This document shows, one piece after another, positions 1,736-64,000 of a stretch of DNA of 64,000 nt. Source of the DNA: Rosa chinensis (lineage: Eukaryota > Streptophyta > Magnoliopsida > Rosales > Rosaceae); contig NC_037090.1 in the NCBI RefSeq assembly GCF_002994745.2, forward strand, positions 41,068,001 through 41,132,000, in the 5' to 3' direction. A program made the translations under genes and the position numbers. Within the stretch, counting starts at the first letter, position 1, and the number at the start of each line of letters is the position of its first letter. A model generated the notes under the pieces. The model saw nothing but the letters and a program-made list of their open reading frames with translations. It was not told the DNA's origin and searched no databases.

Positions 1736-3279
1736 GTGAATTGCACACCAAAGCTAATAACATCTGCAGCAAATATCATAAAGAATATTTCATTTATAAA
1801 AAAATATATCGCAAGCATTCTTAAAAGCGCGGAAAGGAATATATTAGTCACCAAAGTACACTATTACAATATGTATAAAAACTAATATCCGATCAAAGGA
1901 GAATCAACTACAAAATGAAATTAAAAATGTAACGTAACTACTATACTTGTCATTAGGTATGTTCTATCAACCTTAAATAGATGCAGAGCTGCATGAACTC
2001 CAATGATTTGTCCTTGCCAAAATAAGAACCTAAACCTTAGTACCTAAACAAGCCAATAGACAGAAATTTAGATTATTGATACAATGTATCTGCTATAAGG
2101 TTGGTGTTATAACCTAGCAGCCAAAACTAAAACCATATGCAATTCAGTTACTAAGGTTTGTGTCAAATACATTTGCAGCTTTTCTACAATAGTAATAGAG
2201 ATATGTCATGCATGCATATTAGGTAGGAAAAAGTAGGTAGGAGGTGCAGATTACAGATTTTCCTAGATTAAAACAATGATCAAAACTTAGCTTATATAAA
2301 GCTAATAGTAACTAGTATCCTAAATCATGCAAAATCAGCCTAGTCTTTAGCTTGGAGCAAAGTCATAATTTCCCTAAATCAAGTTCAGGACAGTGAATAT
2401 ATATCAAGCAAAGTAAGCATCAACTTATACATCTTCTAGGTTAGGTGCAAATTTAAGAAGTTAAACAAATTTCTAAATTAAAACAAGAATCAAAGTAGTG
2501 CAAAATGAGGCCTTAAATTGAAAGCAAAATCATGAGTTTCATACCTTTTGGGAGTTGTGGAGTCTTGACTCTTGAGCTTGCTTAGTATGGTGGACAATGG
2601 AGAGGAAAAAGACTGCACCTCCCAGTAGTGAGATAGGACAATGAGTGTCTTGATATGCTTCTCCATTTGCTGATAAGGGAAGACAAAAACAAAGGAGGGG
2701 ATTAGTTGATCAAAACTCTCAAACTTTTGGTGAACTCAATCGACCAAATATAACAACAAACAATCAGTGCACTAAGATCTGGAATAAAAGGTTTTGGGAT
2801 TACCTTTGTACACAATAAACTTTAGAAGTGTATTAACCTTTCCATATACATCATCTTCAAAGGATTATTCTCTAAAATTTCCACTCCTTCCGTACGATTC
2901 ATGTTCTGTTGCTGCATCTTTGTGACCATATATGCCTTGAGCAACTTGATACTGCAATCCACATCATTTAAAGCACTCCATAAGTTTTTGATAAGTGAAG
3001 TTCAACATTGCAATGAAACTAAGGAATCTACAAAATTCAAATCATAATTTCACAGCTACATTTAACTGTTCCAGAAAATAATAACAATTATATAGAGTAT
3101 AGAAGAGCATATTTCTTTTCTTTCATAAAGCATATAGAAGAGCATATAGAAGAGTATATAGAAGAGTATAGAAGAGCATATAGAAGAGTATAGAGTATAA
3201 AGCAAACAAAACCCAGTAAGCAAGACATCGCTGATTTCTGGAGTGAGAGTCACTCTGAACGGCCTGAATGGAAGCATAC
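1736..3279. other. CACTA-1 interior, AT-rich, no gene recognised
   Basis: This stretch is AT-rich and looks intron- or UTR-like for the captured minus-strand DNA to its right. Short simple repeats of AGAAGAGTATA type lie at 3130-3200. I see no convincing reading frame here. Confidence 0.4.
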
Positions 3280-3480
3280 CTGATTGAAACCACAAATATT
3301 TGACCATCGTTTGACCAAGCTTTACCGATCACAACTACATTACTTGTGAAATTACTTAACACTTTACTTGAAATTGGAATATCGACAGATTTCCATGCCC
3401 TTAAGGTACCATTTCTAATTTCCTTCACAATTATGTCGAATGGCGAATTACTATGGACACAGCACAATTCCAATTCCATT
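3280..3480 (-). pseudogene. Exon-like captured fragment in CACTA-1, unidentified
   Basis: An open frame of about 67 codons on the minus strand begins after an AG near 3481 with a Met and is followed by a consensus donor CAG|GTATGC at 3279-3274. The visible peptide includes IVKEIRNGTLRAWKSVDIP and SNDGQIFVVSIR. It looks like real protein-coding sequence bounded by splice sites, but I cannot name the family. Minus-strand DNA at 4200-4380 and 7204-7330 may belong to the same captured gene. A chance open frame remains possible. Confidence 0.45.
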
Positions 3481-4380
3481 CTTTTCTGGTATCAAGTAAT
3501 GTAATCAATTAACCAGTGAAACGTATAAAAGCATTTAACCAAACTTATCTTAGATTTCACTCAAATAACCAAAGAACCAAAACTCATTTATTTTACTGCA
3601 ACAAAACTCAAGTTACCATTCAACAAGTCTCAATTCACAGTGAGTATAAACAAACACGAGCAACCCTTTCCAAACCATTTTCACAACTGCACTAACCACC
3701 ACAATCATATCAACATGATAAAATCAAATTTACAACCAGGATATTTCAATTTCAATTCCAACACCACAATTCATCTAAACTGTCGAAAAGTACCATAGAG
3801 CAGAATTTCAATTCAAGAATAAGAAGTTACCCTCGAGCGTATGATTAGTAAGTTTTCGACTTAACGATCAGCCACTAGCACGCACAGTCCTCAAATCCGA
3901 CGAACGACGAACCAAGGACTCGGTGCACTCCAAACTGGTACTTCAGGAATTTAGCTCCAGTGTAAGTCAACATGCATCAACAGGCGGTGGCATGGCGGAA
4001 GGAGAACAAAAAAAAAGCCAGAAGTCACCGGCGTCAATGACCGCGACGGAGCCGAAACTACCCCAGAAAATCAGTCAAAATCGATTGAATTGAAAAACTA
4101 ATTATACTAACGTGTAGAGCATGACGAGGGGATCGATTTCATACCACATGTAGCTCAAGTGGTGGCCGGAGTCGCCGGAGAAACTCAGAGCTTCTAGCGT
4201 ACGATTCTTCCTCCATGGCGGACGATTGGTCCTACAGGGCATAAACCAAACTAAACGAAGGCCTGCACATCAAGAGAAAAACACAAAACAAGCAAAGTCA
4301 GGATCTTTTCACTGAAATTTCAAACCTTTCATCAATCTCATAGTGGATCTGCATAAGCGCAGCCTCTTGGACCTCTTCTC
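3481..4380 (-). other. CACTA-1 interior, probable captured gene DNA
   Basis: Position 3481-4120 is AT-rich and intron-like. Position 4120-4290 is GC-richer, and on the minus strand shows short open frames around GDSGHHLSYMWYEIDP with a possible acceptor before it. No family was recognised. The solo LTR at 4386 interrupts this segment. Confidence 0.35.
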
Positions 4381-5986
4381 GACAGTGTGATGCCCCGGAA
4401 ATTCGTATTTATTTTCCGAGGATTTTCCGGAATTAATTTTATGTTTATTGGATGGTTTCGTGGCTCGTGGATGGAGCGGAAGTGTTTCGGACGAATTTCT
4501 ATTCAGAAAGTGTGACTTTAGGGATGGCGTAAAGGTTGACTTTTTATTCGTTGGGATTCTCCGAAAACTTCCTTCACGAAAGTTGTAGAGCGCGTCGATA
4601 CGAGTTCGTGGATATGTGGAACGCGAGAATCGGAGTTCGTATGAGGAAGTTATGGCTATTGGAAAAAGTTTCCGTTTTAGTATAAATATGGAAAATCAGT
4701 TTTTTTTTTTCATTATTCCCCTTTCCTTTCCCGGAAGATATTTTCCTCTCTCTCTTCTCTCTCGTCCGCGCCCTCAGAGTCGAAGTTTTTCGACTGACCC
4801 GACCCGGACCCGGTCGATCCGACCCGACATTTCCGGCGAGCTCCGGCCATCTCCGGCGACGAAATTTTCCAGACGGGATCGTCTCCGCCTTCTGGTGGTC
4901 CCTGTGGTGTTCTCTAGCACCGATTCTCGGTGGTAGCGGCGGTAGAAGGCGGTGCAGGTTGGTGTTTTCGGACCCGGCCGGAAAACACAACTCCGGCGAC
5001 TTCATGGCTTCAACGATTCCTTGGTTGAGCTCAGAATAGCCTCGTCGATCGATCCTTGGTGGTTGTTTGGATCGATTCACGTGAAACTTCGATCAACTCA
5101 GTTGGGATCACTGTTCACGGCTTGTGAGGTAGTTTTCGATCCCTTAAGCTTGTTTTCTGACTTCGAGCTAGTTATGAGAATTCACAAGCATGCTTAGATG
5201 AAGCTTTTTGATGTTGGGAGTTTTGTGAAATAATGAGTTTTTGGCCGGCGGCGGTGCACCACCGTCTGTGGTGGCGTTCCGGCGGTGTTCCGGCCACTTA
5301 AGGAACTGTTTCTGTTATTATATATGTTTTACTCGTTGATACGAGCGTTTCAATATATAATATGCAAGTTTTGGAGTTCGTTTGGAATTGTTATGATTTT
5401 TGCAGTTTCATACCGATCGATTTATGCTATCCGTGAGGATTTGAGCGTCCGATCGACTTGTGGTTTGGTCACATCGATCGTGGACGTATTCCGGAGACTT
5501 TGGGAGGTCTCGGATGTGGTTTCGCCTCGATTGGCGCCACTTTGGGGATTTTAGTTCAAAACAAGGGTTTCGGACTTAAATCATTTGTGAATCGTTACTA
5601 ATTTGAGATCATTGGTGATTAGGTGCTTCTAAAGGTGAATTGGACGAGTTGTTGGTGATAGTGTTAGTTCGGTTCTGTATTGAAGATGCAGCGGGATTCT
5701 GAGGTGAGTAATCTCACGAAGTTCATTCACGAACGGGAATACCTTATTGTTTTGAGAGTTAATTGGTTAACTGCAAACTGTAGATGGTATTAGTGACATT
5801 TCTAAGTAGATGACTATGTGTGTATATATATATATTATGGGATGTATATATATACATACGTATTCATGTATTAGTTGTGGATTTGTGAAACAATATGCAT
5901 GAAACGATGCTTTTTATTGTTTTGGGTTGTGGCTTTTGGAAAACAATTGGTGGGAAATGGTATTTCTATTGTTTTGAAAAGTGTTT

Positions 5987-6208
5987 GAGGATTTGAGAGT
6001 CACAGGTTGTGATTTCTCCTTTTGGGTTGATTTAACGTTTTGATCTGACGACCGGTGGTCTGAGGATTTGAGAGTCACAGGTTGTGATTTCTCCTTTTGA
6101 ATTGATTTAACGTTTTGATCTGACGACCGGTGGTCTGAGGATTTGAGAGTCACAGGTTGTGATTTCTCCTTTTGATTTGATTTGACGTTTTGATCTGAGG
6201 GTCAGGTT
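5987..6208 (+). repeat. 75-bp tandem repeat inside F2 LTR copy 1
   Basis: GAGGATTTGAGAGTCACAGG recurs at 5987, 6062 and 6137, an exact 75-bp spacing, giving nearly three copies. In the third F2 LTR the corresponding region holds roughly one copy (about 54190-54260). Confidence 0.9.
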
Positions 6209-6367
6209 GGCCTAAGGATCCGGGGTTGCAGGTTGCATCCTCATGGCAATATTATATCGTAAGATTGAACCTTGGCCGGGTGACAGGTTACGATTCAGTT
6301 AGAGCTCTAGTCTGTCTGCCATCGTACTTTAGGGATCTAAGTAGGTTACTTAAGACTCCTGGGTACA

Positions 6368-6606
6368 TATTTTGTCCAGGTTGGACCGATTTGTTGTTTT
6401 GTCCAGGTTGGACCGATTTGTTGTTTTGTCTAGGTTGGACCGATTTGTTGCTTTATCCAGGTTGGATCGATTTATCATATTCTACTTGTTAGGTTAACAA
6501 TAGGTATGATTTATTTGTGTTGATGTTTTGTCCAGGTTGGACCTATTTGCTGTTTTGTCCAGGTTGGACCTAATTATTGTTTTATCCAGGTTGGATCGAT
6601 TTATCA
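6368..6606 (+). repeat. 27-bp minisatellite inside F2 LTR copy 1
   Basis: Repeats of TTTTGTCCAGGTTGGACC plus about nine bases form two short blocks (about 6368-6478 and 6524-6606). The unit is nine codons long, so it keeps reading frames open without coding meaning. It is strongly expanded at 54512-55047. Confidence 0.88.
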
Positions 6607-7203
6607 TATTTGAATTGTTAGGTTAACGATTTATATGATTTTGTCACGGTGTGACTTTCGTTGTTTCTTTTGGGAAAAGAGTATTGATTTTGGAAGCATG
6701 GTATGTTTTCTTTATTCGCGAGTTGAAAGGTTTTCCTCGTTTCTGGCGTGAGTTGTGCATGTGTGGTTTTGAGTTACTCATACGGGCTTGCAAAAGCTTA
6801 CCGGGTTTGTTGTGTGGCAACCCGGTACACTATTCAAACGGTGTAGGGGTTAATCCTGCAGGTTAGGATAATCGGGGCTGAAGCTGACGTAGCGCCTTCG
6901 CAGCTTTACGGTAGGAAGCTATCTTTGTGACTTTACCTTGATAAGGACTTCCGTTGTATAGTTACTCTGAGCAGCCTTTACGTGTTATTTTGTTGTTGAC
7001 AATTTAATTCGTAAGCTTGTGTAATATATAACTCTTTGGAGCGAGTGTATATTAACTTTGAGGGTTCAGGGCATCAATATGTGTGTAAGTTTAAGGGAAA
7101 AAGATTTCAGGTATTTTGTATTGATGACTGGACGTTCACGCATATATAATTATGGGGTTATATATATATCGATTTTCATGTGTGTAAAATCAGGGGCGTG
7201 ACA

Positions 7204-7652
7204 GACAGCAGGTTTTCCGAGAGCGGAGCCGGGGCTGGTGCCTCTGGGCGGTGGGGGTAGAGTTACTGCCAATCATAAATACGAATCTGCACTCAGAACT
7301 TGATAAAATAGAAGATTAGAAGGCATAGCTAGCTAGATCTGGGTGTTTGGTATTTTAGGAGGGGCACTTTGGATAAAGAGGATTTCGATTTCGCTGAAGA
7401 GAAAGAGGATTTGGATAAAGAATACAAGCAAGGAGCTGGGAGCTTGGGACTGAGATAGGTTTTGACGAGAGAGACAGAGAGAGAGAGCGGTGAGGTTCTG
7501 GGCAAGAGAGACAGAGAGAGAGCGCGCGGTGATGTTTGGGACTTCGGGAAAAAAGAGGGAAAAAATTAGGGTTGTTTTGTTAGTAAGAAATTTGGACAAA
7601 AGAAAACCAAAAACAAAAAAGAGGGGAATTTTTTTGGGCTAGTGCGAAGATT
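7204..7652 (-). other. CACTA-1 interior right of the solo LTR
   Basis: It continues the DNA interrupted at 4385. On the minus strand a GC-rich stretch at 7204-7260 could encode a Pro-rich segment and is followed leftward, across the LTR, by KRSKRLRL-like codons. The 7330-7620 part looks like 5' UTR or promoter DNA with GAGA-rich tracts. No family was recognised. Confidence 0.35.
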
Positions 7653-9120
7653 ACGATTGACCAATTCGATCAGATTCAAAAATATCGTGAAATTGGCTAA
7701 ATTTTTTACCACACTCATAATTTATTGTAATAATCTCAACCAACGGTCAGTTTTCCCATTTTCTTTAAATTGATAGAGGTTACCCTTTGGAGTGTATGAT
7801 ATATAAATATAGATTTAAAAAAGTAACTAAGTTTGACATAATTGATCGAATTCGAAACGAGAACCAAATTGGCTGGATTTTTTACAACCACCATAAAACA
7901 TTACAATCTCTCCATCGAGCGGTTGATTTCTCCAAATTCATTTTCCACTTCATGGTTGCTTTAGAATGAACATCAACAATTTAAATGCAATGTATAAGTC
8001 ATACAATTTTAGGAGACAAATTGGTATAAGCTAACATATTTGTAATTAAAATTGAAATTTTTATCTTATGTCCATGCACATCCATCGATGAAATATTTAC
8101 AAACGTGATGTGAAAAAATAAACACGTTTCGCGGTCATCACGTCATCGGTCAACCAAAAAGACATATATGTGACGACGATTGACCAATTCGATCGGATTC
8201 GAAAATATGGTAAAATTGGCTAAATTTTTTACCACACTCATAATTTGTTGTAATAATCTCATCCAATGGTCGGTTTTCCCATTTTCTTTGAATTGATAGA
8301 AGTTGCCCTTTGGAGTGTATGAAAGATAAATATAAGTTTATAAAAATAACTAAGTTTGACCTAGTTGATTGAGTTCGAAACGTGAACCAAATTGGCTGGA
8401 TTTTTTAAAACCACCATAAAACATTACAATCTCTCCATCGAGCGGTTGGTTTCTCTAAATTCATTTTCCACTTCATGGTTGCTTTAGAATTAACACCAAC
8501 AATTTAAATGCAATGTATAAGTCATACAACTTTAGGAGGCAAATTGGTATAAGCTAACATATTTGTAATTAAAATTGAAATTTTTATCTTATGTCCATGC
8601 ACATCCATCGATGAAATATTTACAAACGTGATGTGAAAAAATAAGCACGTTTCGCGGTCATCACGTCATCGGTCATCCAAAAAGACATACATGTGACGAC
8701 GGTTGACCAATTCGATCGGATTCGAAAATATGGTAAAATTGGCTAAATTTTTTACCACACTCATAATTTGTTGTAATAATCTCATCCAATGGTCGGTTTT
8801 CCCATTTTCTTTGAATTGATAGAAGTTGCCCTTTGGAGTGTATGATATATAAATATAGGTTTATAAAAATAACTAAGTTTGACCTAGTTGATCGAGTTCG
8901 AAACGTGAACCAAATTGGCTGGATTTTTTAAAACCACCATAAAACATTACAATATCTCCATCGAGCGGTTGGTTTCTCCAAATACATTTTCCACTTCATG
9001 GTTACTTTAGAATGAACATCAACAATTTAAATGCAATGTATAAGTCATACAACTTTAGGAGGCAAATTGGTATAAGCTAACATATTTGTAATTAAAATTG
9101 AAATTTTTATCTTATGTCCA
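7653..9120. repeat. 523-bp tandem repeat, about 2.8 copies, in CACTA-1
   Basis: ACGATTGACCAATTCGATC-type starts occur at 7653, 8176 and 8699, both spacings being 523 bp. Copies two and three are closer to each other than to copy one. The third is cut after about 420 bp and runs into the right subterminal region. No reading frame is kept across the units, so this is non-coding structure. Confidence 0.93.
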
Positions 9121-9229
9121 CACACACCATACCAATATTACAAAAGAGTAATACAGTGACATTTATGTGTTGCCACGGCTTCTTTCCGTAGTGTTTTTTT
9201 TTTTTTTTTGGTAAAGTACATATACATAT

Positions 9230-9416
9230 AAGTTTTGCGACGGCAAGAGGTAAAACCGTCGCAATTGAGCACAAAATTACTACGGCAAAGATTTTCCGTC
9301 GCAAATGATAAAGGTTAATCGCGATGGAACATTTTCCGTAGCAATAGAGAGTCAATTGCGACGGCAACTGTTGCCGAAGTAAAAAGGTGAAACAATTGCA
9401 ATTGTTTTTAGTAGTG
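9230..9416. repeat. CACTA-1 right subterminal and terminal repeats
   Basis: Multiple TTGCGACGGC-type motifs in both directions end in the inverted terminal repeat TTTTTAGTAGTG, followed by TSD TCA. They match the left end at 1398-1735. Confidence 0.82.
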
Positions 9417-41144: not shown

Positions 41145-41720
41145 CACTACTACAAAAAGTTAATCACACAACACCAATCAGATAACGGAACAAAAATTTA
41201 CTGTTGTGTGTTTAAGTGAACTCTATTGTACAACGGTATTAGTGATGTTCTGTTGTGTGAATGTCAATAAAGTGATAACCTTTTTCTCAGAACTACATTG
41301 CACAACACAATTAAGCAATGTCCGTTGTCTGAGTCTTAAAAAATTTAGCGGCAGATTTCCCTCCACTCTTGAGTCTTGGTTGCCTCTTGAAACACTAAAA
41401 TTTTGGTTACTAGGTACAACGGTTTAGCTATTTCCGTTGTATGATTAAAAACTGGGTGCCAAATTTTGAGGAAGCTTGCTTGAATGTCTTCTACTAGGTA
41501 CACCTAGTGCATGCTGCATAAATTGTACAACAGATTGTAGTCATTCTATTGTCTGAACGAGGAACATAGGCGGCAAAATTTTCATTTTGACTCAAATTTA
41601 TTTGATCTCTCCCACCAGACCTAGTCAGGCGGCAAAAACTCCCTCCCTATAATTTTTGTATGTTAACATTCATACAACATAATTTTATCTATCTGTTGTC
41701 TATCAGACTTATAAAAAAAA
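41145..41720. repeat. CACTA-2 left subterminal repeats
   Basis: Repeated CACACAAC, ACAACGG and CCGTTGT motifs in both orientations follow the terminal repeat. They mirror 45470-46059. Confidence 0.8.
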
Positions 41721-41745
41721 AAAAAGAGTTGTCTGCCCTTGTTGA

Positions 41746-42245
41746 ATGTGTCGAAACCTTCATCCTCACAAAACCTATTGTCTCTCTCTTTTCTCACAAA
41801 ACACGAAACCTCTCTCCTCTAAGCCAAAAGCTCAGAGCTATCTCTTAATCATCTCATCCAAAACCCTTAAATTCCAATCTCCTTATCTTCATCTCATCCA
41901 ATTGCTTCCCCAATTTGAATCCCAAACTTCAATTCAACTCTACCATCTCCAGTTCACAGTATTTTGCTACCAAAATGGCATTCCTTGGCTGCTGTTAGCC
42001 TTTTCTAGGTCGTCTTTCTTTGTCTCTGAGACCGCACTGTACCAAATCTTCACCTTCCTATTTCAATTTTCTCTTGTGGGGATCTACGTCACCCTAGGGT
42101 TTTCCAATTTTGTGGCCCAAAACCTAGCCTCTTCTGCCAGTGGCTACGTTGTCCACCAATGCTGGGTTAGGTCTCTCCTGTTCGATACCAACTAGAAGGC
42201 CAATCTCGACCCCTCCGGTGCCATAACTGCGGCAAGGTTCTCTGG
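41746..42245 (+). pseudogene. Unidentified captured segment in CACTA-2
   Basis: A long open stretch (41746-42195) ends at a stop after LLFDTN. It includes a hydrophobic piece IYVTLGFSNFVAQNL and a possible splice donor TCTG|GTAAGG near 42244. It looks like transcribed DNA (CT-rich leader, then GC-balanced sequence) but I do not recognise a family. It may be the 5' part of the ATP synthase gene copy or of another captured gene. Confidence 0.35.
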
Positions 42246-42389
42246 TAAGGTTTCACTCTCTTATCCTCCAAATTCCCCCATCTTTTTTTACCTTGGCCCC
42301 AATTTCAAGTCATTCTCTTAGCTGAGACTTCCTCTTTTTGAGATGGTTGGTAAGAAAGGAAGAAGAAGAAGAAGAAGAAGTCATCAAAG

Positions 42390-42632
42390 ATGGGAAAGTT
42401 CAATGCTTGGCCTGTGTTCTTCAAGCGCGAGTGGAATCGGAATTGGCCTTTCCTCGTCGGCTTCGCGTTCTCTCTCTATCTCACTGGGTACTCCACTCCA
42501 TTTCTCTTTCTCATTCTGTGAATATGAGTCCCTTTCAGTGAGGTAGGGTTTTGATTTGATTTGTTTATGGGTTCTAATTTTGCAAAGGAGGATGCGAAGA
42601 ACTCACCTTTTGTACAGAGTCACAAGAAGTAG
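42390..42632 (+). pseudogene. Captured fragment of mitochondrial ATP synthase 6-kDa subunit
   Basis: Exon 1 (42390-42487) starts at ATG and reads KFNAWPVFFKREWNRNWPF, then LVGFAF and a donor TGG|GTACTC. The last exon (42588-42632) reads EDAKNSPFVQSHKK and a stop, behind an acceptor GCAAAG. These match the start and end of the plant F1Fo ATP synthase small subunit of about 55 residues (family known from memory). The middle stretch between LVGFA and EEDAKN is missing, and direct splicing of the two exons would be out of frame. A GAA-repeat leader precedes the ATG. It is a defective gene copy carried by CACTA-2. Confidence 0.87.
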
Positions 42633-42771
42633 GTCTCTCGAACAACCCCAATCTATTATAAATTTCTGCATACAACAAGTCCTTGGGCTGAAATTATGCT
42701 TAGACGAAAGCGAATTAGAAATCATTAGCTCTTTTACATATTTATTTTACTCTTAATTGGAGAACAATTAT

Positions 42772-42894
42772 AGCTCTGGTGCTGGAAGTGGTGGTCAAGT
42801 TGCCAAAGATGCTCTAGGAAACGATGTAATTGCAGCACAATGGCTTAAGACTCATGGGCCTGGTGACAGGACTCTCTCACATATACCTAAATGA
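42772..42894 (+). pseudogene. petC: Captured fragment of chloroplast Rieske Fe-S protein (PetC)
   Basis: An open stretch reads [17 protein letters not shown], then [15 protein letters not shown], and runs into a stop after HIPK. This is the segment between the transmembrane/hinge Gly-rich region and the start of the soluble Rieske domain of the cytochrome b6f complex subunit. The cluster-binding motifs, which would follow downstream in the real protein, are absent. Only one partial exon was captured. The identification rests on the strongly conserved KDALGND and [11 protein letters not shown] blocks. Confidence 0.88.
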
Positions 42895-43733
42895 GGATAA
42901 ATCACGATTTGCTCTATATAAGGTAATGCAAGATATCTATCTATAAAGTTTTTTATTCCAAAGAAGTAAGAAAAGAATGGGGCATTGTAATCATGCTTGG
43001 AACCTTACTGTTCTTTCATTATTTGTTCATAAATTGTCCCTGCTATCCATTGCGAATTCATTGTTTTCCGTCAAGTTTTAGGTAACATGCCAATACCATG
43101 TGAGGAAATGACGATGTTGAAGTTGAATCCTTACTGTTCTTTCATTATTTGTTTGTATTTCCTGTGGATAAGCAGTGTCCACAACACTTTACTTAGTTTT
43201 GAGACATACTTATATTGCATTATGACCATGAATTTTTAACAGCTTTCTTATTATAACCCTATGGTAACAAATTTGTATTCGTTATTGTGGTTTGCATTGT
43301 TTCTCTGACTGATATATATCTAGCCTGCAACATTGTAATATGAGATGTTGCCTGCAACATTCTTAATGAAATTTGATGCGAGGGATATTATGTTGGAGAG
43401 AGAAATAGGTCTATTGGGACTTCGGATAATCGTGATAATAAATTCTTTGTAATATGAGTTGTTGTCGATCACATTCTTGATTGGATTCTCTCTCTCTCTA
43501 TCTCTCTCAACTCACATTTTTTACCGCATCTTGTTTTCCAAATTGAATATTCTTTAAGCTTAAAGGTTGAGTGGACCTCTTTTTATGTTCTTATGCTTTT
43601 GCTTTTATTTAACATCACATGCATTCCCGATTTATTGTCTTTCATGTACTTGGGATTTTACATCTTTATTTTGTTTGTTTTATCTATGCAAATTTATGTG
43701 TTGTTGAACTTACTGTTCTTGACCCTTTGGCAG

Positions 43734-43781
43734 GAGAAAGAGTTTAAAGTTGCAGTTCTCCTTGTTTTTGACAATAAGCAG
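43734..43781 (+). pseudogene. Captured exon resembling an ARF-type small GTPase
   Basis: A 48-bp exon between acceptor TTTGGCAG and donor CAG|GTAAAT reads EKEFKVAVLLVFDNKQ. ARF GTPases have the same pattern at their guanine-binding NKxD motif, with VLLVFANKQ followed by D at the next exon. The A-to-D change and the missing D (in the next, uncaptured exon) would spoil nucleotide binding. The match is short, so it is less sure than its neighbours. Confidence 0.6.
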
Positions 43782-44434
43782 GTAAATGCTACTGCCTGAG
43801 GGGGAGTTTTACTGTTTAATGTCATGTACAAATGTTATTCCACAGATGGGGACAGTGTAAACAGCCTTCTATTGAAGAAATAAATTTTAAATTGAGGATA
43901 GATTTTCCCTTGTATAGTCAAGTAGTCCTTCTGTTGCAATTTCATGTCTCTATCTATACACTTTCAATTATCATTTCAATAAATTGTGCAAGTTTTTGCA
44001 ATATGATATTCTCGTTAGCGATGATATTGGGTTTTCACAAGTTTGTTAACTTAGGTTTGGAATTCCCAGAATTCCCATTTAGTTAGGATATTGATTATTA
44101 TTTATCTTGTGTAGTGGCATAGTGCTTGAGGAATAAACCTTTAGTTTCCAATTGCAGTCAATCACTTTATTTAATAATAAATTGCAGTTTTGTTAGGTTT
44201 TCATTTTTAGGATTCTCATATGTATTTAAGTTGTGGCTTACCTTATAATGATTCAATCTACATATGCATGGTGGTTTTTGTCTCTTCTGGCAGGGTAGGG
44301 GATAGGCAATGCTAGGAATTAATGCTCAGAATTAGGAATTGAAGGGATTTTATTCCTTGTACAAAAATATATGAACTGGCTCTTCAATTTTATGTTGCTG
44401 GGGATTGCTAGGAAGTAAAAAATGTATGATAGGA

Positions 44435-44958
44435 GATTTGGAGTTCGCTAGAAAAGCTCTGCCCGCATGATCAAAGAACACGAATTCTGGAATTCAGGTA
44501 TTGACAGAAACTTTATACTTTGGAAGTTTCACATTCTCTTGTTTTCATTCATTTGGTGTTTACGGTAATGCATATCTATCCTGCTTTGGTTTATTATCTG
44601 TATTTGGTTTTGAATGTTGCTAGTTTCCGCCGTTGTTCTGTTATGTAGGTACTCATATGGTAGTTATTCAGGATTTGTAATCACACTTTAAGTAGATATT
44701 ATGCAATGTGGAACCAACCCAGGCCTGATTCTTCAACCACTGTGTGTCCTCTACAACTTAATGATCATTAGTTTTTTTTTTCTTCAATCAATCAATGGTT
44801 GGGGAAACAGAGTGATTGACTAATCTTGTTAACATATTATGCTTGTCAGGACAAGGAACTTGCTTCTATGATCGAGAGTGTTTCCGAGAAACAACATTTT
44901 ACCGCAAAATGACTTCAACTGCCGAGACTGGATGGGATTTTAGTACAAGATGGATGAG
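44435..44958 (+). pseudogene. TRE1: Captured three-exon fragment of plant trehalase
   Basis: Three exons in correct order with introns kept: 44435-44497 (DLEFARKALPA, then IKEHEFWNS after a 1-nt deletion near 44468, donor CAG|GTATTG); 44672 to about 44738 (NHTLSRYYAMWNQPRPDSST); 44850-44958 (DKELASMIESVSEKQHF, then in the next frame YRKMTSTAETGWDFSTRWMR, after loss of one T in a T-run near 44902; donor GAG|GTAGAT). Trehalase (GH37) splits trehalose into two glucoses; GWDFSTRW is a conserved block of the catalytic barrel. Two frameshifts make the fragment non-functional as an enzyme. Retained introns show capture at DNA level. Confidence 0.96.
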
Positions 44959-45469
44959 GTAGATTTTTGAAACAGGGAGAAGTAATTGATTTAGCATTTA
45001 TACTCCTACATTAACATTTTATTGAAAGCACAATAGAGTATGTTTTGAGTTTGTCTCTCATGTCACTGCACAAGATTATGAGAAGTAAACGAGGCAGTCA
45101 TTTAATTGAAGAGCTTGCTCTTGTTTCCATGCAGGAGCCATATATGTAGGAGTGGACTGAGCAATTGGAAAGTAGTGACCGATTTATGTAGGAGCCATAT
45201 ATGTAGCAGCTGCATATGTGCATATTTTTGGAACAAGTATATATTGTATCTGCTTTTGTTGTTTATCATTGTTAGTTAAAATAAAGCAGTCATCAAGCTG
45301 CTTTCTTCATTTTTTGTTTCATTGTATAGATACTTGAATGTATGGATGATTGACAAATGCTAGCTCTTTTGGTACATTAGATGCTTGAATTAGAGAACTT
45401 CAGTACATAATATATTTTGAATATTATATTGTGCAAATATTTCAGGTAAAAAATCGATAATAAACATAC

Positions 45470-46059
45470 AATAGTGAATTACATTACGTTAATCACACAA
45501 CAAATCATTTTAATCACACAACGGTACCAACTAAATTTTGTTGTCTCAGTAAAACTCACACAACAGAATGAATACATATCAGTTGTCCAATGTTAAATCA
45601 CATAACGGTATAGAAATAAGATGTTGTATGACTTGTGAAGAATTTAACATTGAGCCTCACACATACAACGGTTACTTATGATACCTGTTGTGTGAAGGAA
45701 CAACCAACAACAGTCGCCATATTTTTCTGTTGTATGATAAGTTAACCAACAACATCATGTACTTACTTCTGTTGTCTGAGTGTTTTTTTTTCTGTTGTAT
45801 GAGAAGTTAACCAACAACAGCATGTCTTACTTCTGTTGTCTGATCATCATCGAAAATGCGCCACATCCAATTTCTAGCGTTGGCATGCGCAGAATTGGTG
45901 CAACGGTTATAAGCAGTGCGTTGTGTCTATGACATTCACACAACGGTGTTTCACCGTTGTGTGAGTGTGCTCATCACACAACATCTAGATAGACGACAGA
46001 CATGGTCCACATCACACAACAGATTTCCACTGTTGTGTGATGCAATTTTTGTAGCAGTG
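45470..46059. repeat. CACTA-2 right subterminal repeats
   Basis: A dense array of ACACAACGG, CAACAAC and CTGTTGT(C/G)TGA motifs in both directions ends in the inverted terminal repeat GCAATTTTTGTAGCAGTG. The stretch 44960-45470 before it is AT-rich with one short direct repeat (GGAGCCATATATGTAG) and no gene. Confidence 0.8.
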
Positions 46060-46098
46060 GGAAATGATGGAGATAATGTGAAAATCAAGGAGAGAATC

Positions 46099-52610: not shown

Positions 52611-55600
52611 TGTGATGCCTTGGAAATTTATATTTATTTTCCGAGGATTTTCCGGAATCTAATTTGTGGTTATTGGACGATTTCGTGGCTCGTGGACGGA
52701 GCGGAAGTGTTTCAGACGAATAATTATTTGAAGAATACGGTTTTAGGGGGTTTGCAAAGGTTGACTTTTTATACATTGAGATTCTCCAAAAACTTCATTC
52801 ACGAAAGTGGTAGAGCGCGTCGATACGAGTTCGTGGACATGTGGAACGCGAAAATCGGAGTTTGTATGAAAAAGTTATGGCCTTCGGAAAAAGCTTCCAT
52901 TTTGGTATATATAGAGGATTTTTCCGGAAATTGCAGAAAAGGCCAGGTTTCCATTTTGGGAAATCCAGCTCTGTTTCTCTTCTCTCCTTAGCCCGCGTCA
53001 CACCTTCCACTTTTCCAGCTTTGTTCTTCCTCCTCCAGCCACCATAGGACTCGATCAAAGGTGGGTTGTGTTCGCCTTGCTGCCCTCTACACGTCTGTGG
53101 AAGCAATCGAGAGTGGGTCGAGCTGTAGCTCATGCTACAACCTCGAGAAAAACCCAAGAAGAGGTCAGAATAGCCTATATTTGCCTCTAGCCACCTTTGG
53201 CGGTTGTTCCAAAAGAGATTTTGCACTTAAGGGGACATAGATCATTTCCTCCAAGGTGGGTTGCATCGATTTCATCTGTGGAGATCGAATTGGAGTGAAT
53301 TCAAAACTAGGGTTCATCGGATCCGTCGGCTTCTAAGGTAAAATTTGATCGATTGGTTCATATTTGGACTTTGGTGTAGTTATGAAAGTTGAAATTGGGG
53401 TTGAGATGACGAACTTTGGTGTTGGGAGTTTTGTCAAATTCCGACTTTGGGCCGGCGGCAGCGCCACCACTATGGTGGTATTTTCAGGTGGTTTCCGGCC
53501 ACCTCAGTGATAGTTTATGTTCCTGAGTTCGATCTACTTGTCGATACGAGCATTTCGATATATAGTTTGTAATTTTTGGAGATCGTATGAGCATGTTAGG
53601 GTTTTTACAGTTTCGGACCGTTTGATGTTTCGATCCGTGAGGATCCAACTATCCGATCGACTTATGGTTTTGGCATATCGATCGTAGAAATATTCCAGAG
53701 ACATTGGGTGGTCTCAGATGTGGTTTCGCCTTGATTGGCATCACTTTGGGGATTTTAGTTCAAAACAGGGGTTTCGGACTTAAATCATTTGTGAATCGTT
53801 ACTGATTTGAGATCATTGGTCATTAGGTGCTTCTAAAGGTGAATTGGACGAGTTGTTGGTGAGAGTGTTAGTTCAGTTCTGTATAGAAGACGCAGTGAGA
53901 TTCTGAGGTAAGTAATCTCACAAGGTTCAAGGTTCATTAATGAACGAATTACTTTTATCGTTTTAAGAGTTATTGATTTAACTGCAAACTATAGTTGGTA
54001 TTAGTAGGCATTTCTGAGCTGATGACTATGTAATTATATATTTATGTGAAATATATATGTTTTGGTGGATTTGTGGATTTATGGAAACAATATGCTTGAA
54101 TGATGAGTTTTATTGTTTGTGATGTGACTTTTCGGAAAACAAATGGTGGGAAATGGTATTTCTACTTTTTTGAAAAGTGCTTGATGATTTGAGACCGGTG
54201 GTCTGAGGATTTGAGAGTCACAGATTATGATTTCTCCTTTTGATTTGATTTGATTTGACTTTTTGATCTGAGGGTCAGGTTGGCCTAAGGATCCGGGGTT
54301 GCAGGTTGCATCCTCATGGCAATGTTATATCGTAAGGTTGAACCTTGGCCGGGTGACAGGTTACGATTCAGTTAGAGCTCTAGTCTGTCTGCCAACGTAC
54401 CTCATGGATCTAAGTAGGTTACTTAAGACTCCTGGGTACATGTTTTGTCCCGGTTGGACTAAAGAATCATATTCTATTTGTTAGGTTAACGATAGGTATG
54501 ATTGATTTGTGTTGATACTTTGTCCAGGTTGGACCGATTTGATGTTTTGTCCAGGTTGGACCTATTTACTGTTTTGTCCAGGTTGGACCGATTTGCTGTT
54601 TTGTCCAGGTTGGACCTATGTACTGTTTTGTCCAGGTGGGACCGATTTGCTGTTTTGTCCAGGTTGGACCGATCTACTGCTTTGTCCAGGTTTGACCGAT
54701 TTACTAGTCCAGGTTGGACTAAAGAATCATATTCTATTTGTTAGGTTAACGATAGGTATGATTGATTTGTGTTGATACTTTGTCCAGGTTGGACCGATTT
54801 GTTGTTTTGTCTAGGTTGGACCGATTTGTTGTTTTGTCCAGGTTGGACCGATTTATTGTTTTGTCCAGGTTTGACCTATTTGCTATTTTGTCCAGGTTGG
54901 ACCTATTTACTGTTTTGTCCAGGTTGGACCTATTTACTGTTTTGTCCATGTTGGACTGATTTGCTGTTTTGTCCAGGTTGGACTGATTTACTGTTTTGTC
55001 TAGGTTGGACCTATTTGTTGTTTTATCTAGGTTGGATTGATTTATCATATTTGAATTGTTAGGTTAACGATTTATATGATTTTGTCACGGTGTGGCTTTC
55101 GTTGTTTTCTTTTGGGAAAAGAGTATTGTTTTGGGAAGCATGGTATGTTTTTTCTTTATTCGCGAGTTGAAAGGTTTTCCTCATTTTTGGCGTGAGTTGC
55201 GCGTGTGTTTTGAATTCCTCATACAGGCTTGCAAAAGCTTACCGAGTTTGTTGTGTGACAACCCGGTACACTATTCAAACAGTGTAGGGGTTAAATCCTA
55301 CAGGGTAGGATAATCGGGGCTGAAGCTGAGATAGCGCACTTGCAGCTTAACAGTAGGTTAAGCCATTTTTGTGACTTTACCATTGTTAAGGATTTCCGTT
55401 GTAGTTAAACTCTGAGAAGCATTTACTTTTTATCTTGTTGTTGACAATTTAGTTCGTAACCTTATGTAATATATGACTCTGTGGAGCGGGTCAATATTGA
55501 TATAGTAGGTTCAGGGCATCAATATCTGTATAGTTTAAAGATAAAAAATTTCCAGGTATTTGTTATTGATGACTGAACGTTCACGCATGTATAATTATGG

Positions 55601-57296: not shown

Positions 57297-57960
57297 CACT
57301 ACTAGAATTTTGTTCATAGACATCGGTTCTGGACCGATGTTACACTAATTTTCGACCGATGTCTTAGTGGGTGTAGAGAAAAGTATAGACATCAGTATAA
57401 GCGCGTTTTCAACCGATGTCCCAGACAACAACCAACATCGATTCTAAAAAACAAATCGATGTATAATCGTTATAATCATCATATTTTGTATGTTAGGTAT
57501 GTCTAATTCTTCATATTTTCACATTTTATGCTTAATAAAGTATATGTCGAACAATACCTACGTGAACATTTGCATCGATTTCTATTGCAGAAGCGATGTC
57601 CAGTACACTTGTAGACATCAGTTGCCATGAGTATTGTTTGTTCGTGGGCATTTTTACATGTAGCTTGGCACATTATTTTCTTAGGAACGATGTCTGTATC
57701 TTTAGGCGTCATCGGTTTTTTTTTAAGGACTGATGTTTCATTTAACACAGCACATCGTTTTCATTTAAGCAAAACGATGTTCAATGGTTTTATGTACATC
57801 GCTTGCTTTTTCTAGAACCGATGTGTTGTTTTATTGTAGACATCGCTTTTGTTTTGTAAAATCGATGTGCACTGGTTTTGAGTACATCGATTCTGCGGAC
57901 ACAACTCAATACATTAATAATAATAAGACATCGATTTTCATTTTGATACTGATTTCTAAT
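57297..57960. repeat. CACTA-3 left subterminal repeats
   Basis: Many ACATCG, ATCGGTT and ACCGATGT motifs in both orientations, spaced about 20-40 bp. The right end (62950-63099) has the same motif. Open frames in this stretch are accidental. Confidence 0.8.
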
Positions 57961-58215
57961 CTCTCAAGTGACTTCGTTTTCCTTGGCATTACTGTTTTGT
58001 TATGCTTTTATATACTTCACTTCATTTTGACAAGTGTGATGAGCTAAGTTTGCATCTAGCTGCTGCTAGGAAAAGAAATGCATTTCATAATCATCCAAAA
58101 ATTGGGGCTTTCCATTAATTTTCTTTCCAAATTCATGATTGAACATGTCACAAAAGAGAACCCCAAAACCTACAAAGGCTAGCCTAGAAACATATGAGCA
58201 ACAATCTACAAAATT

Positions 58216-58576
58216 TCAACACCAAACTTCACACGCTAGCTCTTCATATTTGGCAGCCAAATATTTCACAACTTGTAATCCAAGGCCCTGCAAGAGAATG
58301 ACAAAGTCAGTTTCACAGTGCAACATAAACCTAATGACAGTGATTTTTGGTATTTCTTTTTGTTTGTATTACTAAACTAAACAAAAAGAAATACCGACAT
58401 GACTGAGCTTAAAAGGTACTAAAAAGGCAGTGAATCTCAATACACATAATTCACATCGGAATACCAAGTGAGAAAAAGCATGACCACTTTACCTTATCAC
58501 TATCATCTCTCATCACATTAGTGGTCAAAGCCATCAACTTTTTCTTGCTACGCTCTGGCATTTCTACCAAGCTAAT
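58216..58576 (-). pseudogene. Two unidentified captured exons at the 3' end of the chimeric unit
   Basis: On the minus strand exon one (58576-58493) lies between TTGTGCAG and AAG|GTAAAG and reads LVEMPERSKKKLMALTTNVM. Exon two (58287-58216), after CTCTTGCAG, reads GLGLQVVKYLAAKYEELACE and ends at a stop. Exon one is 84 bp, so the two would join in frame. Both look like real coding exons; I cannot name the source gene or prove they share one. Confidence 0.45.
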
Positions 58577-58831
58577 CTGCACAAAACCCAAGAGAACCAA
58601 ATGCAAATGCAAATGCACATCAACATTCAAATCAGTATTATGCAAAGATAGTCTCGATAATACTCAAACATTCTAAATCTGCACAGAAAATACTGAAAAT
58701 TTCCACTCCAATTACGATGCATGATGCCTCACCCCTCCAATTAAGGTAGCGAGGATACTGAAGAGGAAGGGTAAGATATAGAATCTAACTGAGAGTAGGA
58801 TGACCTCAATCCGGTATCCATCCTGCCATAC

Positions 58832-59093
58832 CTGCTTGGCATTCTTGAGAAACTGGAGCAGTGTACTGAAGATGCACCCATAGTCAATAAACAACAATGC
58901 GAAGAAATTAAATCACAGAAAACATCAGCAGAATTTAAGCTTACAGTTTTCTCAAAAAGAGGAAGAACACTATGATCAACCAAAAACTTCCTCAAGTGAG
59001 ACACTACTGCTTCTAGAGCTTTGAGCACCTTTAAGGTTTCTCCCTGCATTTCAATAATCCTCTCATCAGCGGCAACATTGAATGGAACCTCTT
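58832..59093 (-). pseudogene. Captured fragment of a KH-domain RNA-binding protein (FLK/PEPPER-like)
   Basis: The minus-strand exon 59093-58945 reads EEVPFNVAADERIIEM, then LKALEAVVSHLRKFLVDHSV and LPLFEK, with donor ACT|GTAAGC. The next exon 58865-58832 (acceptor TTCAG, donor CAG|GTATGG) reads YTAPVSQECQA. The HLRKFLVDxSVxPLFE block follows KH domains in plant FLK/PEPPER-type proteins, which regulate flowering-gene RNA. The core GxxG loop of the KH fold is not in the captured part. Exon order and strand agree with the other captured genes of CACTA-3. Confidence 0.68.
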
Positions 59094-59870
59094 CTGCCAG
59101 AACAAATATTAGGTATCAGATGCCTTGTTTAGAGAAGTAAGAATATCATTCATTCGAAGAGGCAAAAGAACTTGAGGACAAACGACAACTAAGGATAACA
59201 GGTATAGAAAATACTGGAATCTAGATCACCAATAGCAAATCTAAGCTTTAAATGTAAAGCACAAAAGAAAAGAATGGAAACTTAAATACAAGAATCATTT
59301 TAGTTCCAAACTAGGAATGAGAACCCGCACGATGCCGTGGGTTAGAATTTCTACTTCATGCTTTATACAATGGCATTGAGGGTGATTTTGATTCCATAGC
59401 AGAATTCTGTGCTGTGCTCGAATGCCTCAACTCCACTGCAGAGCGTCTGCAGCCTTAAACACTTCGACAGAAGTGGAAACTCTGTGACAATTGGAATCTG
59501 TGAGTTATGAGTGTACCTTGTGAAGCAAATATCTGCTTTCTTTCACTTGAATGATGAGATCACTTCAAACTTCAAAGGAAACTGACCTGAATAGAGCAGG
59601 ACAAAAAAAAAACATTTATTTTAGTAACAATCTTCAATTCATTAATGACACAGCATATTCATTAACTCCATTCGATTTCAGTGACTTGATAGAAAGCAAA
59701 TTTTACTCGTGAGAAATAAAATGAGAATCAATATACAATAAAGCAGAATAGGGAGCAAGAAGATTTCAAAGCTAGCCTTGATGCTGGTATCAAATCTATG
59801 TTAGAGCAACTGAGAAAAAATGCAAATGAACATAAATTATAGGAGATGTTCATAGTGCTTTCAGCCTTAC
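59094..59870. other. CACTA-3 interior between KH and VPS13 fragments
   Basis: Mostly intron-like. A minus-strand stretch near 59500-59370 is open for about 40 codons (including LLSKCLRLQTLCSG) but I cannot assign it. Confidence 0.3.
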
Positions 59871-59871
59871 C

Positions 59872-60635
59872 AAAATAGATTGAAGCATCCTTACTCAATT
59901 CACAAAATAATTCACACAGTTCCTTCATCAAGGAAATGGAAATACATTGCCTTCTTCATTTGGTCAGAAACAACTTTGTAAGCATACTTCAACCAAGACC
60001 TAGGATCAGATTTTACAGAGATTCATCAAGGAAATGGAATGAACCAAAGTTATCAGCTAACTTCAGTACATCCCCATATCCATCCTGAAAAAAAGAAACA
60101 AAAACAGAAAAAAAAAAAAAAACAATAAAAGATCAATTATACATGATTACAATTAAACATAACCTCCTAGAGCACTGATGAAGACTGATGAAGACAAAAT
60201 AAAATGAACCTCTGGCAAACAGATAGTCACATCATCTAGTTGCTCATGTAAAGGCTAACCGCAATCAGCAAATTCTTTGTTGTTGTAGATTTGAATACTT
60301 GGTATTTCCAAAAAAGGGTCCCAATGCATCAGTATGCTTCTTGGTCAATTTATTCACTGGTTTAACTTTAATACCAAATCTAAAAAACTTGAAGTAAAAA
60401 TATAACCGTTGTGTTTAGGGAAAATTAACAAAAAAAAAAAAAGGAGAGCCCTATGTATATAAACTCGAATATGTCTGTGCGCATGTTCCATGGATCAACC
60501 TAGTAAAGAGAATTGATTGGGCATACCTGAACCCACTCTGATGGAAGCAAATCCTTCCATTGCTTGTCAACATGCCATGGAGGATGAAGTAATATCACAA
60601 TCCAGATAAAGTGCAAGCCGATCAAGTTCAACAGA
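59872..60635 (-). pseudogene. VPS13: Captured fragment of VPS13 (chorein-family lipid transfer protein)
   Basis: Two minus-strand exons. Exon one (60635-60527; acceptor TTTTCCAG, donor CAG|GTATGC) reads VELDRLALYLDCD, then in a shifted frame PWHVDKQWKDLLPSEWVQ. Exon two (from 60084, acceptor TTTTTTCAG, to the donor near 59871) reads DVLKLADNFGSF and later RSWLKYAYKVVSDQMKKA. These are successive segments of the N-terminal chorein region of plant VPS13, which moves lipids at membrane contact sites. Frameshifts and a small duplication (CATTTCCTTGATGAA at 60025 and 59940) break both exons. Confidence 0.87.
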
Positions 60636-62091
60636 CTGGAAAATAAATGGGGAAATATTACATAGTAGGGAAGCAGGGACCGATATATTGAAGAAGTTAA
60701 GGTATCCACAAAGACACAAATTCTTATTTGTTTTAACTTTTGACATAACTACAGAGTTTTACTATAACAAAATCAACTGCACAAAAATACACACAAACAA
60801 TCAACACTTTTAAGGACCACATAATAAAATCCTTTCCTTTGTATAATACAGTAACAATAAGAAATCAAAAGTATCCCATAATATAGGGATTTAGCATAAA
60901 ATTAACTTACAGTTCCAAGGGATAAGTTTCTGAAAGTGGATTAGCCAATCAAGAAAATAGCACCCTTAGGCTCTCCAGTTTGCAAACAACTCTAGTACAC
61001 TCTCCCTGGAAAACAAAGCACGGATACGAAGTGGTTAGAGAGAAGCTTGTATTATGTGTATATAATTTCAGCTTCCTTAGGAATAACCATATTAAAATAA
61101 ACTGTAACAACACTGGAGCAACTGTGACCATAAACTCTAAATCTAAAATACATTCCTCAGTTATACTCTCTGATTACTATGTATTCTGCAAAAACATGTA
61201 AAATATTGATAGAGACGCAACTTGAAAAACGGTAGCTCATCTTGAAGCAAAATGAAGGTATACCAGAAAATAAAGTGGCTAATCTGTTGCTTAGAGTCTT
61301 TGTTTGTAGCTGCAAGATGAACATCATAAATAATTAATGAATGGATAACTATTAAAAAGTGTTAATAATCTCTCAAGCCCCTAGGTAAAGCAAAGATATC
61401 AGTACATACAACCAATTGAATCTCTCAGACGCAGAGCATGAAAAGCATTCAATACACACCCTTATTAGTTTTCTAAACTCTTGAAAAGTGCAACTAGAGA
61501 ATTGCAGACTTATCAAATCTACAACAGAACTGCGAACTGTAACTTTTGGAGGTCTTTCCTAAACTTACTAATATCTTGTTTTCAAGTAAAAAAGTAATAA
61601 TTTGATGATAACGCCAAAAGTAAATACATCATCAGTTAACTAAGCAACCTGCAAACCAACTAACCAAAAAATGAAATCACACATAATTGTATCTCAATTC
61701 CCACACAAGTGCAAAGAAGAACTACAGCTAGAGAAACAGTGATAGGACCACATCCATGGGAAAGGAAGTATAAAGCTAGAGATTAGCTCAAGTCTTTAAT
61801 CATGCACAGAAAGCAATCCTTTTTTTCCATTAGCTTAATTAACTACTGAACATTAGCTATCACAGTAGAAGCTTGAAAGATATCATCACTACCTAAATGT
61901 AGTGTATCAGATCCATAAAAATGAAAAAGTTTAGAATCTCCTTTAATTTTTTTCTATGTAAAGCATTCAAGTCATTTAGGGGATTAAAATAAAACCAGGT
62001 CAAGTCCCATGAAACTCAAGTACTTTTCATGACCAATTTGTTTCGAGCTAATTACTGAACAAATAAACTTCAAACATCAAGAGACTCATAC
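60636..62091. other. CACTA-3 interior, intron-like, nothing firm
   Basis: AT-rich DNA between the VPS13 and PBA1 exons. One exon-like piece near 61015-60950 (minus) follows TTTTCCAG and reads GECTRVVCKLESLRVL before a stop; its family is unknown. Confidence 0.35.
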
Positions 62092-62165
62092 CTCTGCTTC
62101 GTCCTTGGTCATTCCTTCTCTCCATGCTTGATCAAAGAATCCATACAAGTAACTGGAGCCAGAAC
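62092..62165 (-). pseudogene. PBA1: Captured exon of 20S proteasome beta-1 subunit (PBA1)
   Basis: A 74-bp minus-strand exon between acceptor GTTATAG and donor GAG|GTATGA reads [14 protein letters not shown] and then EGMTKDEAE. In plants this is the stretch of the proteasome beta-1 (caspase-like) subunit after the central GG motif. The N-terminal catalytic Thr is elsewhere in the real protein and absent here. The exon itself is intact, with no stop or frameshift. It is the most 5' identified exon of the minus-strand chimeric unit in CACTA-3. Confidence 0.9.
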
Positions 62166-62396
62166 CTATAACACAGAAAAATATGTCAGGTCAAACCACA
62201 GGCAAAAGTATCGCATTAATTGAACCTCCCTCATAAAGTGGAAATCATATCCAGTTAGAACCAAAGCATGCTATTGAAATCAGTTCTAATACAGTTTCGC
62301 TACAACCGAACGATTCCAAACAAATCTGAAATCGGAAATCGAAAAATCCAGTTCACGATAGAGCTTAAAAGAAAAGCGAAGTATCACGAAGCTTAC

Positions 62397-62800
62397 CCTT
62401 TCTACCGGCGAGCTTTCGCTTTTCCCTGCAGAAGATCCTATAAACCTTGTCCTTCAATGAGCTCGGTCAAAACGCTTTGGAGGGCGAACTGTGAAGAGTT
62501 GAAAAGGGTTTTGGAGGAAGCAAAATCAACTCGAATCCCTCAAGCAGAAGAAATCGAATTTGGGTTTGGCAGGGGGAGGGCAGCAGCGGGAGTTGATGAG
62601 GACGTCGTCACCGTCATAGTGGGAGGCGCGTAAGATGACGGACTGGACGGAGTCGATGCTGAAGAAGCTGAGGATGTAGAAGAAGGAAGCAATGAGGAGC
62701 TCTAGAATGGCAGCGATCGAGTTCGAGTAAGCTTAGGGTCCAGAATGGAGGTTGAGTTTGGGAGGAGATCCAGTTTGGGGTGAGTTTAGAATGAAGGAGT
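62397..62800 (-). pseudogene. GC-rich unidentified first segment of the CACTA-3 chimeric unit
   Basis: A GC-rich stretch read on the minus strand ends at a possible donor near 62397 (AAAG|GGTAAGC). One frame shows SIDSVQSVILRASHYDGDD with a hydrophobic stretch before it; another shows KDKVYRIFCREKRKLAGRKG just before the donor. It resembles a 5' UTR plus first exon captured with its promoter. I do not recognise the source gene. Confidence 0.4.
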
Positions 62801-63099
62801 CTCGCTAGGGTTTTCTGTTTCAGTTTTGGGGTCGGGCACAAATCTTTTTCTAAGTGTGAAAGTTTTGAGTTTTAGTACCCGCTTCCTCATTTCACTTAAA
62901 GACTTGGCGCTTTTTGCAAAAATAGGTTCCCGCAAATTTTCAAACAAAACTTTTAACACCGGTCATTTTAAGAACCGATGTTAATGATATACATTTAAAT
63001 CGGTATTTTCGTAAAACGATGTTAGATTACTTTTTTACATCGTGGGCAAGTCTGACCGATTTAAAACATGCGATGTCTATGAACAGATTTCTAGTAGTG

Positions 63100-63195: not shown

Positions 63196-64000
63196 TGATA
63201 GGAGCATTTTTATGCGACGTTTTAATAATTATTTCCTCATATTTTTCTTAGTTATTTCCTTTACTTAATCATTTTTAATTTAGTTTCTATTTTCTAGGTA
63301 CATTAGAATAAATGACAAAGAAATGAGCTAAAATGAAGAAATGGAGTTTTCCTGGTCCAACTAGGAATCCCAGTCAACGCAGGAATCCTAATGAGGCTAG
63401 GAAACCTGAAGGCATTAGGAGACCACATGGCTTGAAGATGATGTGTGAGATATTATGGGAGACTAAATTTGATTTTTGCATGGGAAATGATGGAGATAAT
63501 GTGAAAATCAAGGAGAGAATCAAGGAGATTACGTTGAGAAAATCTTGGGAGAGTTTCATGGGATTGTGCAACAAGAAAAGGCTAAAGACAAGTCCAAACT
63601 GATTCCTCAATTCCCTCAAGATATGTTGGCCGAAATTAAGGAATTAAAATCTGCAGTTTTAATGTGAAAATCAAGAGAAAATCAAGGGGAGAATGTTAAG
63701 GATAAAGCCATGGAGAGATTTAAGGGACAAAAGGTTCAAAATCCGTCCGGATACATTTTCTAGGTTGATGCCTAGATATTTGGCTTGAAATTGCGAATAA
63801 AATCAGATTAAATCATGGGAAAATCAGCAACAAAAGATTAGGGATTGATTTTGGAGCTTTTTAATTGATTGGATGACACAACAGAGCTGACGTGGCGCTA
63901 CGTGATTGGTTGAAGTTGTGTGGCATAATCAAATTAATTCCTTAGGAAATTAAAGGAAGGATCATGAAGCTTGGTCGTCCCCCTATATAAACCCTCCTAT
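63196..64000 (+). mobile_element. 3' LTR of the LARD-like element (truncated by window edge)
   Basis: Starts TGATAGGAGCATTTTTATGC and matches the 5' LTR from 40853. It lacks CACTA-2 and the LTR of 46099-48216 and so preserves the empty site of both. Open frames at 63333-63619 are shared LTR sequence, not genes. Confidence 0.9.

Follow-up and report, generated by a model that had tools for sequence, protein, structure and literature searches.

A Pack-CACTA element of Rosa chinensis, probably a hybrid of two groups within its family, with pieces of four genes as apparent non-coding passengers

The window analysed here is a stretch of 64,000 nucleotides of the Rosa chinensis genome (assembly GCF_002994745.2, contig NC_037090.1, positions 41,068,001 to 41,132,000, forward strand), and coordinates given without a contig or locus name refer to it. 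At 41145..46059 lies a non-autonomous Pack-CACTA element, of a family that is new but of a kind already known, in which pieces of four host genes follow one another: those for the ATP synthase 6-kDa subunit (ATP6), the Rieske protein PetC, an ARL1-like GTPase and trehalase. Its ends, with their terminal inverted repeats (TIRs) and target-site duplications (TSDs), and its empty target site are as follows.

41145..46059, plus strand: Pack-CACTA element, probably hybrid, 4915 bp; TIRs matching at 13 of 14 positions, TSD GGA, seven further copies in the genome
41142..41144, no strand: left TSD, GGA
46060..46062, no strand: right TSD, GGA
41145..41158, plus strand: left TIR, CACTACTACAAAAA
46046..46059, minus strand (reverse-strand reading): right TIR, CACTGCTACAAAAA, one base off
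63196..63521, plus strand: empty target site, an uninterrupted copy of the entered repeat with a single GGA

The strongest proof of insertion is the empty target copy at 63196-63521, inside the window itself, which is 96.3% identical over 326 bp to the joined flanks of the element (290 bp of left flank and 36 bp of right flank). CACTA TIRs, a 3-bp TSD and short subterminal repeats (all seven plus-strand window occurrences of CACACAAC and all five of ACAACGG lie near the element ends) place the element among the CACTA transposons; host-gene DNA as cargo, recurrence at independent sites and the lack of a transposase gene in the frames scanned make it a Pack-CACTA. The longest stop-free frame is 149 aa, and a domain search of this frame and of nine other pieces of the element found no transposase domain in those frames. 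The terminal five nucleotides read CACTA on the left and CACTG on the right in the window copy, the right end being CACTA in the other six two-ended copies. Among the papers listed by literature searches, no title or abstract opening was on this rose family, which is no proof of its being unreported.

Upstream of the cargo lies a leader, and the four pieces follow it in order:

41804..42218, plus strand: leader, matched in whole or in part at 79-88% by at least 20 further loci
42364..42631, plus strand: ATP6 piece; exon 1 from 42390, exon 2 to 42632
42721..42881, plus strand: PetC (Rieske) piece; the end of an intron and most of one exon, from 42774
43003..44013, plus strand: ARL1-like piece, mainly intron; sole remaining exon 43734-43781, the parent's adjacent exon missing at 43319-43371
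44350..44987, plus strand: trehalase piece; end of exon A at 44497, exons 44649-44741 and 44850-44958

Gene copies corresponding to the pieces were sought in a 515-Mb assembly of the same genome, whose contigs are called C1, C2, C4, C5, C6 and C7 below and whose loci carry L-numbers. For ATP6, of which relatives of the window element hold the complete two-exon coding sequence, a 49-residue spliced query gave a best E of 2e-14 and matched 79 of 80 candidates, several of them named ATP synthase 6-kDa subunit. The gene copy at C5:69.375 Mb is the sole match that is free of stops and at 90% to a peach protein; the piece is 79.7% identical to it in DNA over 237 ungapped positions, with the intron present and poorly conserved, and because this identity is low the true donor may be another copy. 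The PetC piece matches a Rieske protein of solved structure at E 5e-15 and is 92.7% identical, 53 bp of intron included, to the gene at C2:77.248 Mb, the product of which equals P0100 exactly over most exons; it stops within its exon. As a lone query the ARF-like exon had no database match at E 10, and tblastn with ARF1 gave 0.039; it is assigned to an ARL1-like gene because the introns beside it align at 83-87% with the gene at C4:23.044 Mb (blocks of 87% and 83%), and the ARL1 exon that lies between these two blocks has been deleted from the element. The trehalase piece comprises parts of three exons, two whole introns and, upstream, 82 bp that extend into another exon and adjoin the rest at about 44428, where about 450 bp have been deleted from within the piece. 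Pfam recognises it at 1.9e-4 in one window frame and at 5.5e-6 in the joined pieces, it matches the trehalase structure 7e9u of the PDB at 4e-9, and it is 93.1% identical in DNA to the gene at C7:6.309 Mb over 553 ungapped positions, relative to which it has three frame lesions.

These results bear out most of a preliminary description of the stretch, made from its letters alone, which had placed all four pieces in one element and in one sense on the plus strand: TIRs, TSD, empty site, protein and DNA matches and the located gene copies agree on the former, and the latter is seen directly. Protein matches were obtained for ATP6, PetC and trehalase, and the ARF-like exon was matched through the intron alignment on C4; the ARF-like GTPase exon that had been named is thus one exon of an ARL1-like gene, in a piece that is mostly intron and has lost the neighbouring exon. 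The trehalase fragment does hold the three exons claimed for it, in part, with both introns, but also the deletion and the lesions just given. Capture as DNA, not by retroposition, had been proposed as well; alignment of exons and introns with the gene copies supports it, since introns that match are retained for three of the four (PetC, ARL1 and trehalase, where they are clear, the ATP6 intron having diverged), and so DNA was captured and not mRNA.

An assembly error, or parents that lie adjacent elsewhere in the genome, could in principle give such an array. The gene copies are, however, on four different contigs (ATP6 on C5, PetC on C2, ARL1 on C4, trehalase on C7), and the parents are therefore not adjacent in this order. 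At least eight of the 49 matches listed for the query 42300-45000 are near full length at 93-100%, window copy included, this count being a lower bound. Seven of these eight (the window copy and six that were fetched) have both ends, with perfect 3-bp TSDs that all differ, and a megablast comparison of their flanks, 14 of 1.5 kb each, gave no match among one another; the eighth, L012, breaks off at element position 4294 and lacks the right end, and its flanks stood outside this comparison. As the same order recurs in copies at independent sites, it is real and has moved as a unit, which leaves both explanations barely credible; nothing was found that speaks for either. The seven other copies are 97.8-99.0% identical to one another and 96.1-96.8% to the window copy, which is the first branch of the eight in a tree of the left part rooted on the A-type elements described next (support 1.0).

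Two groups of relatives each hold one side of the element. The A group (L016, L017 and L018/19) has the left part with ATP6, PetC and ARL1 at 89-92%, and lacks the trehalase part; the T group (L028, L029 and L032-L035, with shorter matches in L030 and L031) has trehalase and the right-end DNA, and none of the ATP6/PetC/ARL1 DNA was found in the T-type DNA fetched. The two sides meet as follows.

44061..46059, plus strand: stretch that T-type elements match piecewise; ATP6, PetC and ARL1 were not found in those elements
44014..44030, no strand: junction of the A part and the T part; right limit extends to about 44060 when L029 is disregarded

The narrower bracket holds if a 35-bp match in L029 counts as T sequence. 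We consider it very probable that the window element and its seven further copies are Pack-CACTA hybrids, in which an A-group left part and a T-group right part were fused, with the gene pieces as non-coding passengers.

An alternative, which we judge improbable, is that a single lineage gained the four pieces serially, with no fusion, and that the A-type and T-type elements arose from it by deletion. Serial gain does occur in the family, since L017 and L018/19 have acquired a piece of a serine hydroxymethyltransferase (SHMT) gene within their ARL1 part, and L029 may derive from a hybrid. Against this, some elements in each group retain host DNA that has no counterpart in the hybrid: the ARL1 match of the A-type L016, L017 and L018 runs to L020:2793, the hybrid stopping 28 bp short at 2765, and trehalase in the T-type L030, L031 and L034 runs to parent position L021:3671, the hybrid stopping at 3514. 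Neither group as a whole is therefore a deletion product of the hybrid. Moreover, both T-type elements that are bounded by TIRs at each end (on C5 with TSD AAT, on C1 with TSD TGA) have a different left end, 77-79% identical to that of the window over 184 bp, and no match to the ATP6-PetC-ARL1 part except a CT-type simple repeat.

Several observations weigh against the fusion. For about 45 bp at the junction (element positions 2870-2916) the sole outside source among those examined is the 35-bp match in L029. This locus is 97.7-98.8% identical to the six other two-ended hybrids and 96.9% to the window copy, and it may thus be a hybrid derivative itself, being nearer to the former. T-type left ends were followed in two elements of the group, and the A-type ends are worn (L017 has the unequal flanks AGT and ATT, the ends of L018/19 are altered, and none were seen in L016).

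A fusion of A and T parts would fit an origin proposed by Gisby & Catoni (2022, PMC8903248) and by a 2026 review (PMC13317346), whereby neighbouring elements of the same family and direction are mobilised as one after loss of their inner ends. In the rose, an A-type and a T-type element would have inserted close together in the same direction. Their inner ends would then have been lost, and the outer pair would have been mobilised by transposase from another element. Movement of the complete element to at least seven other sites is seen directly in its copies.

The common direction of the four pieces could also mean a working chimeric gene, and in favour of this seven exons can be assigned GT/AG ends and the CACTA element Tgm-Express1 of soybean yields chimeric transcripts. 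The preliminary description had splice sites and introns kept, which is mostly so; the exceptions are the ATP6 acceptor, which is CAG in all three A-type elements and CAA in all eight hybrids (with an AG two bases further on), and PetC, which is without its own donor. At the ATP6 donor, an additional G that the C5 gene lacks is present in 10 of the 11 element copies aligned, and with it canonical splicing would shift the ATP6 frame; the eleventh, L012, is without a donor GT. A 24-bp deletion in ATP6 is confined, among the eight hybrids, to the window copy. The three trehalase frame lesions recur in all eight, and seven share a stop codon that the window copy lacks. Overall, exons vary no less than introns (51 of 603 sites against 105 of 1345, gapped columns dropped; Fisher p 0.65). 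Finally, exon chains were modelled from the ATP6 start codon (ATG) for a single set of splice sites; of the 63, none has a four-gene frame, and the best reach three genes over 77 aa, outside the parental frames. A protein from all four genes is thus unlikely, given the common lesions, the exon variability and the missing frame, and a working chimeric gene is highly unlikely; we infer from the lesions and the variability that the pieces are passengers without a coding role. The single chimeric transcript suggested in the preliminary description may exist in a non-coding spliced form, as in soybean.

Passenger status has its own counter-evidence. Unlike the pooled result, trehalase exons are slightly more alike among copies than trehalase introns (98.4-98.6% against 97.3%), which the other exons are not consistently. 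In addition, stretches of ATP6 in members of the family are matched by three NCBI protein models of Rosa chinensis: P0033 matches L009 with its first 40 and its last 14 residues out of 55, P0013 matches L017 with 40 and 15, and P0004 matches L019 with 34 and 21. From these matches, expression of the ATP6 piece is possible; the models themselves are likely to be annotation of transposon cargo.

For the four pieces of the window element, one shared direction has p = 0.125. Relatives hold further cargo. A fifth gene piece, of SHMT, lies at 3760-5090 on the minus strand of L017 and in L018/L019, reaches Pfam 1e-20 in L017, and matches the genome at C7:44.24 Mb, at a distance of some 640 kb from L017. 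The C5 T-type element has a pentatricopeptide-repeat (PPR) piece by Pfam, in sense, with a near-identical frame in the C1 element. An exon in L029, which we take to be P450-reductase-like, shows FAD_binding_1 in sense. Counting these, DNA-level pieces across relatives (ATP6, PetC, ARL1, SHMT, trehalase, PPR and the P450-reductase-like exon) are in sense in seven of seven cases (p 0.016), which would speak for cargo taken up or retained mostly in the direction of the element itself and not by chance. The FAD_binding_1 match (1.7e-4) is, however, below the Pfam cut-off in an element whose left end was not reached, and the set was gathered post hoc, is incomplete and comes from frames visible to a domain search; the bias is therefore a lead and not a result, and we hold a directional rule to be unlikely, if less so than the other alternatives weighed here.

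A WD40-repeat gene copy, intronless and at 98-100%, occupies L033:2944-3945 (plus strand) of a TIR-bounded T-type element, with an open frame of 334 residues. In the C1 T-type element the WD40 copy gives six exon matches at 98-100% to C7:8114523-8118096, and its flanks match C6:1077822-1077893 with a 13-bp overlap, an apparent target duplication. Intronless, with these exon matches and this overlap, it arrived by retroposition, and its antisense stretch was accordingly set aside as a counter-example to co-orientation; counting it, 7 of 8 are in sense (p 0.07). A reversed C6 segment of the same element, which resembled a nucleoporin exon in sense, gave nothing with Pfam and was not counted.

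Leader matches are likewise a lower bound, 40 of 178 candidates having been scored. Twelve of the at least 20 leader loci listed have a nearby match to the left-end sequence, and L037 has the family's left end. No domain above the Pfam cut-off was found in the leader-touching frames 41849-41995 and 42128-42223 of the window, L037:914-1333 and L038:4231-4536 (eight frames tested). It is doubtful, and more so than a bias of direction as such, that the family takes up or keeps cargo one way, perhaps through a promoter-like left leader that would transcribe it, with antisense pieces selected against or never captured.

The window holds two further CACTA candidates, neither of which has a blastn match to the element at 41145-46059: one at 1398-9416 (8019 bp, TIR 14/14, TSD TCA) and one at 57297-63099 (5803 bp, TIR 12/14, TSD TCT). 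An array with a period of 27 bp lies at 54393-55073, with one related stretch at 6455-6713.

Helitrons are rolling-circle elements and, unlike the rose element, are not known to have TIRs or TSDs. Those of maize resemble it in the stepwise gain of several gene pieces, as described by Dong (2011, PMC3288121). Closer is Tgm-Express1 of the soybean wp allele (Zabala & Vodkin 2007, PMC1947982), a CACTA element of 5.7 kb inserted in an F3H intron. It contains pieces, exons and introns alike, of five genes unrelated to one another; these were spliced as cassette exons of one transcript, from which we infer that they share one direction. The rose family is close to it in that a CACTA element holds exon and intron pieces of several unrelated genes; it differs in that in soybean the transcripts have been demonstrated, and in the rose eight copies and relatives from both source groups are visible. 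Multi-locus cargo is described for Pack-TYPE elements, in maize mostly in Pack-CACTAs (Gisby & Catoni 2022, PMC8903248), and to that literature the rose adds gene copies located for each of the four pieces and a hybrid junction narrowed down to about 17-45 bp.

Ultimately, the gathering of unlinked gene pieces by Pack-CACTAs has so far been a proposed model. Here a probable hybrid is preserved beside relatives from both of its source groups, and since host introns serve as an external reference, the direction of change can be read. That predicted rose proteins in some cases match transposon cargo is relevant to annotation, and a bias in cargo direction may be tested on the defined set of elements that the family provides.

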